64,000 bases of DNA from Microlunatus elymi (GTDB lineage: Bacteria; Actinomycetota; Actinomycetes; Propionibacteriales; Propionibacteriaceae). The notes under the pieces were generated by a model, which saw nothing but the letters and a program-made list of their open reading frames with translations, was not told the DNA's origin and searched no databases. The stretch is taken from positions 4,960,001-5,024,000 of the forward strand of contig NZ_CP041692.1 in assembly GCF_007362775.1 (NCBI RefSeq), in the 5' to 3' direction. Shown piece after piece: positions 18,841 to 37,936 of this stretch. How positions within the stretch are numbered: position 1 is the stretch's first letter; each line of letters starts with the position of its first letter. Made by a program: the position numbers and the translations under genes.

Positions 18841-19709
18841 CGGTTACGCGTCTCCGACGGCGACTTGGGCCGGTTCTGGTTCTTCTTGCGGCCCTGGCTC
18901 GGCTGCGGCTTCTTGCGCTGCTGCTGCTGCTGTTTCTTCGGCGCGTTCTGGTCGGCGGCCAGTTCGGGTTGCGGGCCGCCGACCTGCTCGGCGGCCAGTT
19001 GCGGCACCGGCGGTTCGGCCAGGCTTTCTCCGGTACGAGGCCCGACGGCACCGTCGCGGGCCGAGCCGAGATGCAGGATCCGGGTGGCCACCGCGTTCAC
19101 CAGACTCGGTTCGTGACTGGCGAAGACGATCGCCAGCCCCTTGTCCCGCTCCTCCTTCAACCGGCCGGACAGCCAGGCGATGCCCTCGGTGTCCAGCCGG
19201 GCCTCCGGTTCGTCCAGGATCAGCAGCTTGCGCGGCCGGACGAAGGCGGTCGCCAGCGCCAACCGGCGCCGCTGGCCCGAGGACAGGGTTCCCGGCAGCT
19301 GGCCGGACTGCGGGATCAGCTGGACCTCGTTCAGGATCTCGTCCACCACCGGCTCGGGATCGCTCAGCCCGTGCGCCCGCGCCAGCAGGTCGAGGTGTTC
19401 GACCACGCTGAGGTCGGGGAAGAAGTCCAGGTCGTCGATCACGGTGGCCATGTCCCGGCGGATCTCCGGCGAGGTCTCGCTCAGCTTCGTACCGCAGACC
19501 TCGATCAGGCCGTCGTCCGGCTTGTCGGCGCCGACCAGGCAGCGCAGCAGGGTGGACTTGCCGGCGCCGTTGCGGCCGGTCAAGGCGACCGCGTCCCCCT
19601 CACGGACCTCGAGGTTGAACTTGTCCAGGATGGTCACCGGCCCGAAGGCTCGCCGGAGTCCCGACACCTTCAACACCACGTCGCCGCGTTTCGCCATAGT
19701 GCGGCCCAT
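18837..19709 (-). CDS. ABC transporter ATP-binding protein
   Basis: ABC ATPase of 290 residues with Walker A GRNGAGKST (about 43-51), signature LSSGQRRRL, Walker B LLILDEPEARLD and the switch-region SHEP. The last 60 residues form a Gln/Lys/Arg-rich low-complexity tail. A second ATG five codons in is an equally possible start. It forms a two-gene exporter operon with the downstream membrane protein. Confidence 0.9.
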   Translation of the reverse strand: MGRTMAKRGDVVLKVSGLRRAFGPVTILDKFNLEVREGDAVALTGRNGAGKSTLLRCLVGADKPDDGLIEVCGTKLSETSPEIRRDMATVIDDLDFFPDLSVVEHLDLLARAHGLSDPEPVVDEILNEVQLIPQSGQLPGTLSSGQRRRLALATAFVRPRKLLILDEPEARLDTEGIAWLSGRLKEERDKGLAIVFASHEPSLVNAVATRILHLGSARDGAVGPRTGESLAEPPVPQLAAEQVGGPQPELAADQNAPKKQQQQQRKKPQPSQGRKKNQNRPKSPSETRNR

Positions 19710-33644: not shown

Positions 33645-34634
33645 ATGCTCGAGATCTTCGACATCGACGAGGAGTCGGAGCGACTCTACGGACGGCTGCT
33701 GGCGGTCGGAAACGCGCCGATCGAGAAGCTCGCCGACGGACAGCCGATGGTCGAGATCGAGGAACGACTGGCGACCCTGCATGAGCGGGGGTTGGCGGTG
33801 CGCGAGGTGAGCGGCTGGTGGCTGGCCGTCCCGCTGCCGGACGCGTTGCGGGCGTTGCGGGCCAAGCGGACGGCAGAGCTGGATGCGCTGGTGGCGTCGG
33901 CGGATGCCGCCCAGACTCGGTTGATGGCGATGTCCGACGGCGGCGACAGCGGACTGCGGTCGCTGATCGGCCGGGAAGAGGTGCAGTCGGCGCTGAACGA
34001 GATCGCCGGTCGGGCTCGCTTCGAGATCTGCGGTTTCGACAAGCCCCCGTACGTGACCACCCGGGCCCCGACGCGGGAATGGCTGGAATCGAATTCGGCG
34101 GAATTCCAGGCCCTGCTGCGCGGAGTCCGGATCCGATCGATCTACCATCCGGGCTTCGATGAGAATCGGCTGGCCGAGATGGCGTTGTTCCACGAGGTCG
34201 GTGAACGTGCCCGGACCGGGGACGTACCGATGAAACTCGTGGTGGTGGATGCTGTCGTCGCCTTCACGCCGGCACCGGCCTCGTACGCGCCGGACCAGGA
34301 GACGCGGGCGACGCTGGTCCATCATCCGATCATGGTGGAGGCGTTGCAGTCGTTGTTCGAAGCGGTCTGGCATCGCTCGCTGCCGATCGACACCACCAGC
34401 AGCGGCGTGGCCGCCGATCCTCGCCGCGATCTGCTGGTTTCGTTGTTGATGAGCGGCGCGACCGACGTCGCGATTGCGAACCAACTCGGGGTCACCGAGC
34501 GATCAGTACGTCGTTGGATCGCCAGTCTGATGGACGACCTGGAAGTGCAGACACGTCTCCAACTCGGCGCCGCCCTGGCGCGGACCGAAGCACTTCGCTC
34601 CGACAACCGGCGGTTGGCCGAGGACGACGCCTAG
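33645..34634 (+). CDS. TrmB/LuxR-like transcriptional regulator
   Basis: A 329-residue protein. The N-terminal 60 residues look like a TrmB-type winged helix (EEERLATLHERGLAVRE). The middle is a PLD-like sensor fold typical of actinobacterial TrmB/LuxR regulators. The C-terminus (about 270-310) is a LuxR-type helix-turn-helix reading MSGATDVAIANQLGVTERSVRRWI. ATG has GAAGGGG six bases upstream. Its stop codon is at the edge of a MITE-like element. It neighbours the hexapeptide-repeat protein and is a candidate for binding the paired operators. Confidence 0.8.
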   Translation: MLEIFDIDEESERLYGRLLAVGNAPIEKLADGQPMVEIEERLATLHERGLAVREVSGWWLAVPLPDALRALRAKRTAELDALVASADAAQTRLMAMSDGGDSGLRSLIGREEVQSALNEIAGRARFEICGFDKPPYVTTRAPTREWLESNSAEFQALLRGVRIRSIYHPGFDENRLAEMALFHEVGERARTGDVPMKLVVVDAVVAFTPAPASYAPDQETRATLVHHPIMVEALQSLFEAVWHRSLPIDTTSSGVAADPRRDLLVSLLMSGATDVAIANQLGVTERSVRRWIASLMDDLEVQTRLQLGAALARTEALRSDNRRLAEDDA

Positions 34635-34888: not shown

Positions 34889-35548
34889 TCAGTTGCTGAA
34901 CAGCGAGTGAATGTCGGTCACGGACGCCTCGGCGGTCGCGGCACGCGCGCCGTTGAGGGTCGCGGCGCCGTTCAGACTGCCGGCCCCATTGAGCGAACCG
35001 GCACCGTTCAGCGAATCTGCACCGGTCAGACTACCTGCACCGTTGAGGGAACCGGCACCGTTCAAGGTGGCAGCACCGTTCAGCGAACCTGCGCCATTCA
35101 GACTGTCGGCCCCATTGAGCGATCCGGCACCGTTCAAGGTAGCAGCCCCATTCAGCGAGTCGGCACCGTTCAGACTCCCGGCGCCGTTCAAGCTGTCGGC
35201 ACCGTTCAGCGAACCGGCGCCGTTCAAGGTGGCAGCCCCGTTGAGCGAGCCAGCACCGTTCAAGCTGTCGGCCCCGTTCAGCGAACCGGCGCCGTTCAAG
35301 GTGGCAGCGCCGTTAAGCGAGTCGGCACCGTTCAGCGAACCCGCGCCGTTCAAGTTGCCGGCACCGTTCAAGCTGCCGGCACCGTTGAGCGAACCAGCGC
35401 CGTTCAGGGTGGCGGCTCCGTTGAGACTTGCGGCACCATTCAGCGCGTCCGCACTCGCGGCCTGAACACCGCAGAATCCGACCGCCAAGGCGAGCGCCGT
35501 CGCAGCCCCAGCGATTCGGCCGGCACGCCGGACAGAGACCTCAGTCAT
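34889..35548 (-). CDS. Secreted protein of 28 hexapeptide repeats (LNGA-x-S/T)
   Basis: Not a known family to me. 219 residues: an N-terminal signal peptide (RRAGRIAGAATALALAVGFCG, cleavage probably after ASA, residue 33), then 28 contiguous hexapeptides from residue 36 to 203. Units are LNGAGS, LNGADS and LNGAAT in irregular order; one has Thr for Asn. A 16-residue tail ends VTDIHSLFSN. ATG 35548 has AAAGGAAATC upstream. Synonymous codons vary between units, so the peptide pattern is probably selected. A perfect 16-bp palindrome lies 130 bp upstream. Confidence 0.85.
   Translation of the reverse strand: MTEVSVRRAGRIAGAATALALAVGFCGVQAASADALNGAASLNGAATLNGAGSLNGAGSLNGAGNLNGAGSLNGADSLNGAATLNGAGSLNGADSLNGAGSLNGAATLNGAGSLNGADSLNGAGSLNGADSLNGAATLNGAGSLNGADSLNGAGSLNGAATLNGAGSLNGAGSLTGADSLNGAGSLNGAGSLNGAATLNGARAATAEASVTDIHSLFSN
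34940..35443 (-). repeat. 18-bp tandem repeat array encoding the hexapeptides
   Basis: Twenty-eight 18-bp units, each translating to LNGA-x-S/T (one LTGADS, one LNGAGN). The DNA units differ at wobble positions while the residues stay fixed. Confidence 0.9.
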
Positions 35549-35667
35549 GGATGATTTCCTTTCCCCCAAGCGCCAGCACCCTCGACCCTGGAGGCCCGGG
35601 TGACTCGGACCGGCGCCCGTGCTGTTCAACCTACTTTTGCTCTTCGTGACGTACCCGAGACCACGAA

Positions 35668-35699
35668 CGTCCAAAACCGGACATGTCCGGTATAGGACA
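35668..35699. promoter_or_regulatory. Operator-like palindrome, copy 1 (upstream of repeat protein)
   Basis: Pattern CGTCCA-N2-ACCGGACAT-N-TCCGGTA-N2-GGACA. The core ACCGGACATGTCCGGT (35676-35691) is a perfect palindrome. It is 120-150 bp upstream of the repeat-protein ATG. The same pattern and length recur at 36416-36447. Confidence 0.75.
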
Positions 35700-36177
35700 A
35701 GACGGTCGGATCGTGCTACTGTTCCCGATACCGGCAGCGCCCGTGGCTCTGAGACATCAGAACCACGGGCGTCACCCGGGGGATGTGATCAGTGCCCGCC
35801 TCGCGGCGGTCACTCATCGGCTAGCGATGGGCCGTTCGAGCAGCGCCGACCACTCGGGCCTGTCGCCAGACTAGGAGGGTATTGACCTCATCAGAGGCCA
35901 GCTACCCGCGCTCGCATCTTACCAAGAAAACTTCCGATCAGTTGCGGTCAGTCCATCAATCTGTCCGCATGCCCAGGGAGCTCGGGGACCCTTTGGCGGA
36001 TGGGAGGTTTTCGGCAACGGTTGCGCGCCACGCGGGGCCAGACGACGTCGGGGGACGTCCCGGTCAATCCAAGCGTGGCGACGCATCCAGCCGTCCGAGT
36101 CCATGTCCAAGCTCGGCCAACCCTCTGGGCCCGGGACGGGGGTCATCATCCCGGTGCCCAACGACTGATCAACCGTC

Positions 36178-36211
36178 AAGATCGCTCCCGGGGGAATCGC
36201 TGAGCGATCTT
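36178..36211. terminator. Terminator-like hairpin
   Basis: Perfect 10-bp arms AAGATCGCTC (36178-36187) and GAGCGATCTT (36202-36211) with a 14-base loop, followed by TCGC rather than a long T-run. It may terminate a small transcript from either side. Confidence 0.45.
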
Positions 36212-36415
36212 TCGCAGCCGGCCCGTGGTGCGTCGGGTTCACCACGGCCGTACGGTCGAACGTCGGTCGAAGACTGGATGCGCCGCCCACGTCAGGAGCT
36301 CCAACGCCGATGATCAACTTCGGCCGACGGATCGCCCGCCGGAACCGGAGATCCAAGCGTTGCGGTGCAAGCACGATGCTAGTTGCCTGAGAACTGACCT
36401 CGGGTACCTTTCAGC

Positions 36416-36447
36416 CGTCCACTACCGGACATTTCCGGTAGTGGACA
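36416..36447. promoter_or_regulatory. Operator-like palindrome, copy 2 (upstream of M4 peptidase)
   Basis: Same 32-bp pattern as copy 1. The symmetric part extends to 11-bp arms CCACTACCGGA/TCCGGTAGTGG around CATT (36419-36444). It is about 155 bp upstream of the peptidase ATG. Confidence 0.75.
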
Positions 36448-36601: not shown

Positions 36602-37936
36602 ATGTCCTGTCATTTCATTCCGACCTATCTCTTGCAGCACATCATCGACAACACGGCCGATGATGATCACCACGCAGCCCTGTGCCGGTCGACGCTGCAG
36701 ATCGACGACCGGGTCAGACAGCGGCGCCGACTTGTTGATCATGGACCGGCAGCCGATGCGGACGACGCACGACGTACGGTCTACACCGCAGCCAACACCG
36801 AAGACCTGCCCGGAACCGTTGCCCGCAAAGAGGATGATCCGCCGGCCGGCGATGCTGCGGTCGACGAGGCATGGGCGTCGTCGGGTCAGATCTGGGATCT
36901 GTTCGCAGACGTCTGTCAACGGCAGTCCGTGGACGGTCGCGACACCCCGATCAAGATCACGGTCCATTACGGACGGGATTACGACAACGCCTTCTGGGAC
37001 GGACAACAACTGGTTTTCGGTGATGGCGACGGGGTGATCTTCACCCGATTCACCAAGCCGATGGACGTGATGGCACACGAATTCACCCACGGCGTTACGC
37101 AATACACCGCCGCGCTCACCTACCAGGGCCAGTCCGGCGCCCTGAACGAGAGCATCTCCGACGCGTTCGCCGCGATCTGCAAGCAATGGGTCAACGGCCA
37201 AACGGCCGAGCAGGCCGATTGGCTGATCGGCGAGGGATTGTTCATGCCCGGAGTCCAGGCAAAGGCCTTGCGTTCGATGAAGGATCCCGGCACGGCCTAC
37301 GACGACCCTCGTCTGGGCAAGGACCCGCAGGTCGGATCGATGGCCGACTACGACAACACCACTGACGACAACGGCGGCGTGCACATCAATTCCGGGATCC
37401 CCAACCGGGCGTTCTATCTGACGGCCACCGCACTGGGCGGTCACAGCTGGGATCAGGCCGGCCCTGTCTGGTATCGCGCGTTGACCGGCAGCGAGGTGGG
37501 CGCCGACACCGACTTCGCCGGCTTCGCCAACGCCACCGTCGAGGCCGCCCGGCAGCTGTATCCCGACCACGCGGATGTCGCGGACAAGGTCCGTCAGGCG
37601 TGGGCGACGGTGGGGGTGCTCGACGCGGACACCGCCCCGGCCGCGGCCGGCTCCGGCGGCGCGGTCGGCGCAGCGGTTCCGACGGTCGCCATCCGCCGCA
37701 GCGGCGGCATCACCGGGGTCAGCCGAAGTGCCACCATCGATGCCGACAGTGAGCGTGGCCGCCGGCTCAGCGCCCTGCTCGACCAGACCGACTTCTCCCG
37801 TCTCGCCAGTTCCCCGCCGCGACCGGACCGGTTCGTCTACACCGTTCAGTACGCCGGCCAGGAGATCACCGTCGGTGAGCAGGACCTGCCATCCGGCCTG
37901 TCGGCCGCGTTCCGGACGGCGCTGGACGAGTCCTGA
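36602..37936 (+). CDS. M4-family (protealysin-like) metallopeptidase with C-terminal emfourin-like domain
   Basis: Thermolysin-type zinc protease of 444 residues. It begins MSCHFIPTYLL, like the short protealysin propeptide, and has no signal peptide. Zinc and catalytic residues: HEFTH (159-163), Glu183 in NESISDAFA, and the His261 loop GVHINSGI. After residue 340 an Ala/Gly linker leads to about 80 residues (VAIRRSGGITGVSRSATID ... VGEQDLP) resembling emfourin, the protealysin inhibitor normally encoded by a separate neighbouring gene. ATG 36602 has GGAGG five bases upstream. Confidence 0.87.
   Translation: MSCHFIPTYLLQHIIDNTADDDHHAALCRSTLQIDDRVRQRRRLVDHGPAADADDARRTVYTAANTEDLPGTVARKEDDPPAGDAAVDEAWASSGQIWDLFADVCQRQSVDGRDTPIKITVHYGRDYDNAFWDGQQLVFGDGDGVIFTRFTKPMDVMAHEFTHGVTQYTAALTYQGQSGALNESISDAFAAICKQWVNGQTAEQADWLIGEGLFMPGVQAKALRSMKDPGTAYDDPRLGKDPQVGSMADYDNTTDDNGGVHINSGIPNRAFYLTATALGGHSWDQAGPVWYRALTGSEVGADTDFAGFANATVEAARQLYPDHADVADKVRQAWATVGVLDADTAPAAAGSGGAVGAAVPTVAIRRSGGITGVSRSATIDADSERGRRLSALLDQTDFSRLASSPPRPDRFVYTVQYAGQEITVGEQDLPSGLSAAFRTALDES

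Follow-up and report, generated by a model that had tools for sequence, protein, structure and literature searches.

Two nearly identical 32-bp sites in the 64,000-nucleotide stretch of the Microlunatus elymi genome analyzed here (the window; genome G000) can be described as operators forming a co-regulated set, a view that is supported by their distribution and setting across the genus. The first of them appears to serve a gene for a putatively secreted repeat protein, and the second a leftward promoter of a predicted non-coding RNA (ncRNA). The anatomy of this arrangement at the DNA and RNA level (operator, promoter spacing, conserved RNA structure, and synteny), established by comparison of genomes, is well supported. 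We lean, if modestly, toward a fuller reading, in which a TrmB/LuxR-like regulator, a pheromone-like peptide as its ligand, and a small-RNA output belong to one system; the regulator as the binder, activation, export and re-import of the peptide, its role as ligand, and the targets of the RNA are the parts of this reading that we infer.

The first-pass annotation of this DNA had reported the two sites, and both were recovered with an exact match to the pattern given for them. Operator 1 (CGTCCAAAACCGGACATGTCCGGTATAGGACA, 35668-35699) and operator 2 (CGTCCACTACCGGACATTTCCGGTAGTGGACA, 36416-36447), neither of which is assigned to a strand, share 27 of their 32 letters. Both are imperfect palindromes, with 26 self-complementary positions in the first and 28 in the second, a property absent from that annotation. 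The window indeed holds no further full copy of the motif: at up to three mismatches the only other match is the minus-strand reading of site 2, and the number of copies expected by chance is zero (100 shuffles). The CCGG that had been taken for the core of the motif varies in relatives and was rejected in that role; the letters fixed across relatives are GTCC-N6-GGACATGTCC-N6-GGAC, with GTCC-N6-GGANATNTCC-N6-GGAC (the CCGG letters dropped) as an intermediate pattern for the search of family genomes. The refined motif, TGTCC-N6-GGACATGTCC-N6-GGACA, is an extended palindrome that can be read as two side-by-side TGTCC-N6-GGACA palindromes and thus as four half-sites. Across the complete genome, a single contig of 5,121,194 bases, the CCGG-containing pattern matches the two sites at zero mismatches and two unrelated places at three, while the refined motif matches only these two places at up to three mismatches. 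An occurrence at many unrelated loci, which had been named beforehand as the outcome that would speak against a co-regulated pair, is therefore not seen in this genome.

At up to two mismatches the refined motif is present in 19 of 20 Microlunatus genomes vs. 1 of 177 other genomes of the family (0 of 197 for a reversed-pattern control), and the exception within the genus (G120) carries the shorter pattern at one mismatch. Relatives contain up to eight copies per genome, several of them preceding hairpin RNAs. The 41 operators found in the genus at this threshold comprise 10 linked to a peptide gene, five of the site-2 type, 13 with C-loop hairpins, and a remaining 13 with neither a peptide nor a C-loop RNA assigned. 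Among other settings, an operator lies just past the 3' end of a gene that by eye is helicase-like, at L139, L140, and L071:4826 (genomes G135, G144, and G018). The G074 genome has two operators (L078:5338 and L078:5580) upstream of a secreted alpha/beta-hydrolase-like gene, between the genes for an M4 peptidase and the regulator.

Promoter geometry assigns site 1 to the repeat gene, as had been proposed from its orientation. The distance from the operator to the start codon of the peptide gene is 102–120 bp in 16 of 16 genomes in which this gene was recognized, the window included (operator at 0–4 mismatches of 16 fixed letters; the count omits G074, G148, G135, and G144 of the 20 genus genomes). 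A -10-like hexamer of this gene, TAGGTT (35628-35633, minus strand), starts at the 35th nucleotide beyond operator 1, and a TANNNT hexamer starts 34–36 nt beyond the operator at all 16 loci. Likewise, the -10-like TAGCAT of the predicted ncRNA (36376-36381, minus strand) starts at the 35th nucleotide beyond operator 2, and on the RNA side TANNNT starts 33–35 nt beyond the operator in 16 of 20 cases; the 20 include two operators at three mismatches (L171, and L065 of G125) as well as that of M. kandeliicorticis (G130), where the RNA is not conserved. On the far side of the operators, TANNNT is found in 0 of 16 peptide loci within 28–48 nt and, at scattered offsets, in 6 of 20 RNA loci; its background frequency is 87 in 5000 random windows of 21 starts. 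By this spacing the center of the operator would fall some 60 bp ahead of the transcription start, which is an activator position.

Two further elements adjoin the peptide operators on their far side. In the window, a conserved hairpin to the right of operator 1 (35737-35772, plus strand) lies behind a second -10-like hexamer, TACTGT (35717-35722, spacing 18), and is possibly a second ncRNA. At loci L072, L077, L083, L084, L085, L086, and L088, which belong to several species, a conserved AAAATCGCGTTAGG-like stretch abuts the operator and may represent a second regulatory element.

The gene behind operator 1 (34889-35548, minus strand) encodes a putatively secreted repeat protein of 219 aa, a putative multi-copy peptide precursor with a signal-peptide-like N-terminus (by eye) and 28 hexapeptides of the form LNGA(G/A/D)(S/T). 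The L, G, and A residues are invariant in 28 of 28 repeats and N in 27 of 28, with variation at third codon positions. The gene order gnd – regulator – peptide gene – operator – M4-emfourin gene is largely the same in relatives, distant species included; in G074 two other genes separate the regulator from the M4 gene, and no peptide gene was recognized at that locus. The repeat unit itself changes from genome to genome: INGSGS/INGSKA in G125, INGV in G130, VNGL in M. endophyticus (G114), NSLG in G041, VNGF in G107, HNL in G156, and VNGV in G152 and G140. Other genomes have short precursors, namely 51–52 aa ending in GRGI or GRGV (G018, G098), 63–67 aa ending in VNSI or VNSL (M. parietis, G160, and M. 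speluncae, G164), and 48 aa ending in GRGY in three species (G120, M. flavus (G059), and G088), and the protein thus ranges from a 48-aa precursor to one of 28 repeats. VNGV and INGV also occur as precursor endings. The C-termini of the window, G125, and G107 proteins are other short tails and not the repeat. SEC export, which characterizes RRNPP propeptides, is suggested for the precursors by a hydrophobicity scan only, and the short repeat ORFs of G135 and G144 (endings GHTL or GHSL) have no signal peptide, which argues against a uniform export route.

The TrmB/LuxR-like regulator of 329 aa (33645-34634, plus strand) is the best candidate for the protein that binds both operators. Its nomination as the natural regulator next door is strengthened by the presence of its gene in 20 of 20 genus genomes, taken together with the 19 of 20 vs. 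1 of 177 distribution of the motif. Pfam yields only sub-threshold matches, mostly to helix-turn-helix models at the C-terminus (GerE, LuxR-type, E 0.0032, 17.5 bits vs. a cut-off of 23.5); at E up to 0.1 the TrmB model is not among the seven families matched, and no TPR domain was found. In an AlphaFold2 model (pLDDT 80.2, pTM 0.54, 17-row alignment), the best Foldseek matches are TrmBL2 (E 2.2e-12) and TrmB (E 1.6e-8), with phospholipase-D (PLD)-like folds also present and TM-scores against the TrmBL2/TrmB matches of only 0.27–0.45. The predicted fold has the winged-helix N-terminus and PLD-like effector domain of the TrmB family, and it differs from TrmB and TrmBL2 in a putative extra C-terminal LuxR-like helix-turn-helix and in its gene neighborhood. 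Where the structure of a TrmB-type effector domain has been solved, its ligand is a sugar; we know of none that binds peptides. Behind the regulator gene, the segment 34635-34860 is GC-rich with repeated GCAGGGCGACGCTCCRCGTC-like words (by eye).

In the mechanism that we favor, the regulator would occupy both sites, ~60 bp before the point where transcription begins, most likely as an activator, and two leftward outputs would follow: from site 1, the secreted precursor with its 28 copies of a short peptide and, from site 2, an RNA absent from the annotation, with C-rich loops on its hairpins. The peptide would be released outside, re-imported, and most likely serve as the ligand that sets the activity of the regulator. 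The outcome would be a self-reinforcing cell-to-cell signal with small RNAs as its output, and the M4-emfourin protein, a frequent neighbor, may process or degrade the peptide.

We consider it rather unlikely, if deserving of weight, that the regulator senses a small metabolite and simply has the repeat protein among its targets, as a secreted protein with a structural, adhesive, or matrix role, with the operators and the RNA unchanged. The TrmB-like fold is consistent with this alternative, and so are the length of the window protein with its 28 repeats and the wide occurrence of the regulator family in the class (distant relatives at E up to 1e-20 in 86 of 296 genomes). A crude scan of ~1.5-kb flanks at 28 class-level loci showed no shared small secreted gene by eye (ORFs with a hydrophobic start occur at 14 of the 28), and the association with a peptide is thus so far a feature of the genus. 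Against a structural role speaks, first of all, the 48-aa precursor, which occupies the same gene position in three species and is too short for a scaffold. Furthermore, the gene lies between the regulator and the operator in all 16 genomes where it was recognized, and most of the precursors retain short end motifs over a copy-number range of one to 28. On a tree, sister species have the regulator and the peptide type in common, a pattern that shared descent suffices to explain and that does not distinguish it from co-evolution.

On the other side of operator 2 lies a gene (36602-37936, plus strand) for a protealysin-like M4 peptidase that carries at its C-terminus a fused domain of emfourin, an M4 inhibitor. 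Its M4 catalytic and helical domains match PF01447 (8.8e-28) and PF02868 (1.6e-53), and its emfourin domain matches PF20242 at 34.7 bits, above the cut-off of 27; the protealysin propeptide (PF16485) reaches 19.2 bits vs. a cut-off of 28.1. The first-pass annotation had proposed that sites 1 and 2 co-regulate the repeat protein and this peptidase, with the former perhaps as substrate, scaffold, or target of the latter. Two elements of this proposal are supported, namely that the sites are operators of a co-regulated set and that site 1 serves the repeat gene; the control of the M4 gene by site 2 is not, and the proposal as a whole, with the repeat protein as substrate, now appears improbable. 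M4 peptidases cut before Leu, the residue with which the repeat starts, and 13 of 19 relatives have an M4 gene in the stretch surrounding the regulator (the stretches of G152 and G148 end too early). A precedent for such a role comes from PlcR-controlled NprB, which reportedly accounts for at least part of the maturation of PapR (PMC4701985). Nevertheless, no -10-like hexamer occurs at the conserved spacing on the M4/emfourin side of the site-2-type operators (0 of 5), the M4 gene's own -10 candidate lies at a variable distance from the operator (114, 151, 91, and 67 nt in G000, G125, G114, and G107, respectively), and the ncRNA promoter is on the opposite side of site 2; taken together, these observations leave site 2 without support as an M4 operator and the peptidase gene as its neighbor. 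Moreover, the stretches of G130 (emfourin only), G160, G164, and G041 retain the operator and the peptide gene with no M4 gene found, and no signal peptide was seen on the protease by eye. Conceivably the M4 enzyme acts on the repeat protein, the evidence for this being the adjacency of the two genes.

The fused arrangement invites comparison with the protealysin-emfourin operon of Serratia (PMC9505478), which likewise pairs an M4 peptidase having a protealysin-type start with an emfourin inhibitor; in the window, in contrast, the inhibitor is fused to the C-terminus of the protease. In M. kandeliicorticis, what was found next to the operator is the emfourin part alone (L061:2511-2888). In M. 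parietis (L079:6710-7258) and M. speluncae (L081:7202-7765), an rRNA-methyltransferase-like gene replaces the M4 gene beyond the operator (by eye).

Site 2 appears instead to drive the leftward transcription of an unannotated structured RNA with C-rich loops, predicted between the operators at 36125-36369 (minus strand, ends inferred) and conserved in five copies of four genomes, each beside an operator. A TANNNT hexamer at the corresponding -10 place is found also in G125 (two copies), G114, G107, and G130, and in the first three of these genomes conservation extends left of site 2 from the -10 (ACTAGCATC/ACTAATGTT) through the hairpins; G130 retains the -10 (TAGGTT) with no recognizable ncRNA. 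Hairpin 1 (36223-36247, minus strand) has a loop around GAACCCGACGC, hairpin 2 (36178-36211, minus strand) a loop with UUCCCCC, and hairpin 3, predicted in the window sequence (36131-36154, minus strand), a loop with GACCCCC, where all aligned relatives but G130 retain GATGACCCCC. Across the conserved copies the loops of the first two read GAACCCGACGC, UUCCCCC, or UUUCCCC. In an alignment of the two hairpins from five sequences, 95.6% of cells are paired, and 4 of 18 pairs are changed on both sides (equalled in 4 of 500 shuffles). A model built from the five copies finds just those five in the 20 genus genomes.

We give little credence to the view that this conserved stretch yields no independent RNA and is instead an extended leader, an array of terminators, or a DNA element of some other kind. 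The ends of the RNA are inferred, hairpins can be terminators, and the 243-nt stretch folds only slightly better than shuffled sequences (z -1.64), with better values for shorter parts (z -2.40 and -3.04). On the other side, the stretch has a -10 of its own, placed at the operator spacing, G125 contains a copy (L065, operator at three mismatches) of the ncRNA with neither the peptide nor the M4 gene alongside, and the loops are conserved while the stems covary, which a terminator does not need. Two more operators in G125 (L064:5544 and L066:5710) are followed by similar stretches with a -10-like TAGCGT at a spacing of ~18 and by hairpins whose G-rich loops (UUCGGGGGA) are of a type complementary to the C-rich ones.

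Least probable among the readings considered is the binding of the operators by some other, unlinked regulator, with the TrmB/LuxR-like gene as a bystander: strong regulator orthologues (E below 1e-70) are indeed found without the motif in 2 of 177 family genomes outside the genus, whereas the only two sites of the M. elymi genome both lie beside the regulator gene, regulator and motif co-occur across the genus, often adjoining, and much the same gene order is kept in distant species. These two outgroup genomes are probably Auraticoccus (E about 1e-108 to 1e-110, operator absent), and inspection of a named Auraticoccus locus showed neither an operator nor a peptide gene.

Beyond the site-2 type, 14 further operators precede hairpins with C-rich loops (five in G018, four in G098, two in G059, and one each in G088, G140, and G156). 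These hairpins have an invariant loop, UGAACCCCCGAGC, at 58–63 nt from the operator, with a second hairpin at 109–111 nt behind some of them, and several of the G018 and G098 sites are at corresponding places in both genomes. In a set of 38 distinct hairpins, with and without a linked operator, paired cells make up 90.6% vs. 57.2% when shuffled, and the covariation score is 0.805 vs. 0.194 for shuffled and at most 0.206 for slid alignments; pairs changed on both sides number 15 of 17, a count equalled in 39 of 500 shuffles. The exact UGAACCCCCGAGC loop occurs in 18 of 20 genus genomes, and a number of operator-free copies have a TGTGA-N6-TCACA-like box instead. One of these is the single such hairpin of the window genome (G000:C1:2367419-2367465, locus L172), with the box upstream and no operator. 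At E up to 1, the hairpin model (R1) does not match the ncRNA hairpins of the window, where its sole match is at 18948-18987 (E 0.65); the two types of RNA are thus similar and not proven relatives. Pairing of the C-rich loops with ribosome-binding sites, followed by eye, was not consistent between species.

Among known signaling systems, the closest likeness is to RRNPP/RRNPPA, especially PlcR-PapR-NprB of the Bacillus cereus group with its plcR-papR-nprB gene order: in both cases a cytoplasmic DNA-binding regulator is encoded beside the gene of a propeptide (putatively secreted in Microlunatus), an operator precedes that gene, and a metallopeptidase gene is nearby; autoregulation would be a further likeness. 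Adjacent receptor and propeptide genes, as in RRNPP systems, are found in the window and in relatives, and the 329 aa of the regulator fall within the receptor size range of 250–500 aa. The propeptide size range of 10–100 aa includes the 48–67-aa precursors of G018, G098, G160, G164, G120, G059, and G088 and excludes the 219 aa of the window protein. A TPR domain in the receptor, which is listed among the RRNPP criteria (PMC10075063), has no match in this regulator, which is TrmB/PLD-like and LuxR-like; multi-copy propeptides of up to 8 pheromone copies are reported (PMC11343458), as compared to up to 28 here, and RNA outputs form another difference. In view of the TPR domain and the size of the window precursor, we do not file the system as RRNPP.

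The proposed coupling of a cell-density signal to a small-RNA output likens the Microlunatus locus to other well-known systems. In agr/RNAIII of Staphylococcus aureus and in the Qrr RNAs of Vibrio, a cell-density signal has a small RNA as its main output. In the window, unlike in agr, neither a kinase nor a response regulator was noted next to the regulator, and the agr and Qrr RNAs were compared with those of Microlunatus in sequence through Rfam only. RNAIII targets mRNAs via C-rich loops, as cited in PMC3765725. In our reading, the anatomy of the locus resembles that of RRNPP or agr/RNAIII and would be built from other parts. We suggest tentatively, as somewhat short of an even prospect, a new class of peptide quorum sensing in Actinomycetota, with a TrmB/LuxR-like cytoplasmic receptor, a fast-evolving pheromone precursor of 1 to 28 copies, and dispersed C-rich-loop small RNAs wired to the extended-palindrome operator of the receptor. 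Signals of Actinomycetota are typically enzyme-made small molecules, according to PMC10075063. Among the literature matches listed for Microlunatus and quorum sensing, none has that subject by its title, and the locus is not described in the titles or abstract beginnings of the matches listed for TrmB/LuxR, peptide, or small-RNA signaling. If the proposal is true, the genus would use gene-encoded short peptides with an unrelated regulator fold as the sensor and small RNAs as the answer. It would also offer a compact, testable model for the divergence of peptide signals and receptors, since the motif and copy number of the precursor change between species while the operator and promoter spacing stay fixed.

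The C-rich-loop RNAs themselves resemble small RNAs of Actinobacteria (6C RNA, RF01066; Streptomyces scr5583 and scr1434) in their stable hairpins and C-rich loops. An assignment to 6C RNA was rejected, as its model matches 0 of 20 genus genomes. Rfam 15 gave no match at gathering score over the UGAACCCCCGAGC-type hairpins in 12 loci and none at E up to 1 over hairpins in five loci and the window region; a match to P10 in the window (E 0.051, below gathering) falls in an MlrC-like gene and was set aside as chance. Class-wide, the hairpin model matches 47 of 394 genomes, of which 39 belong to one genus with one match each; at two of those class loci with genes called, the hairpin lies between genes reading as thyX and dapA, by which this genus reads as Streptomyces. 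The comparison thus outlines a structured RNA family not found in Rfam 15, with a related single copy in a genus reading as Streptomyces; if the proposed mechanism is true, its inducer would be predicted in the species where the RNA is operator-linked. A Guanidine-III riboswitch, above gathering score, was noted at L070:1909-1974.
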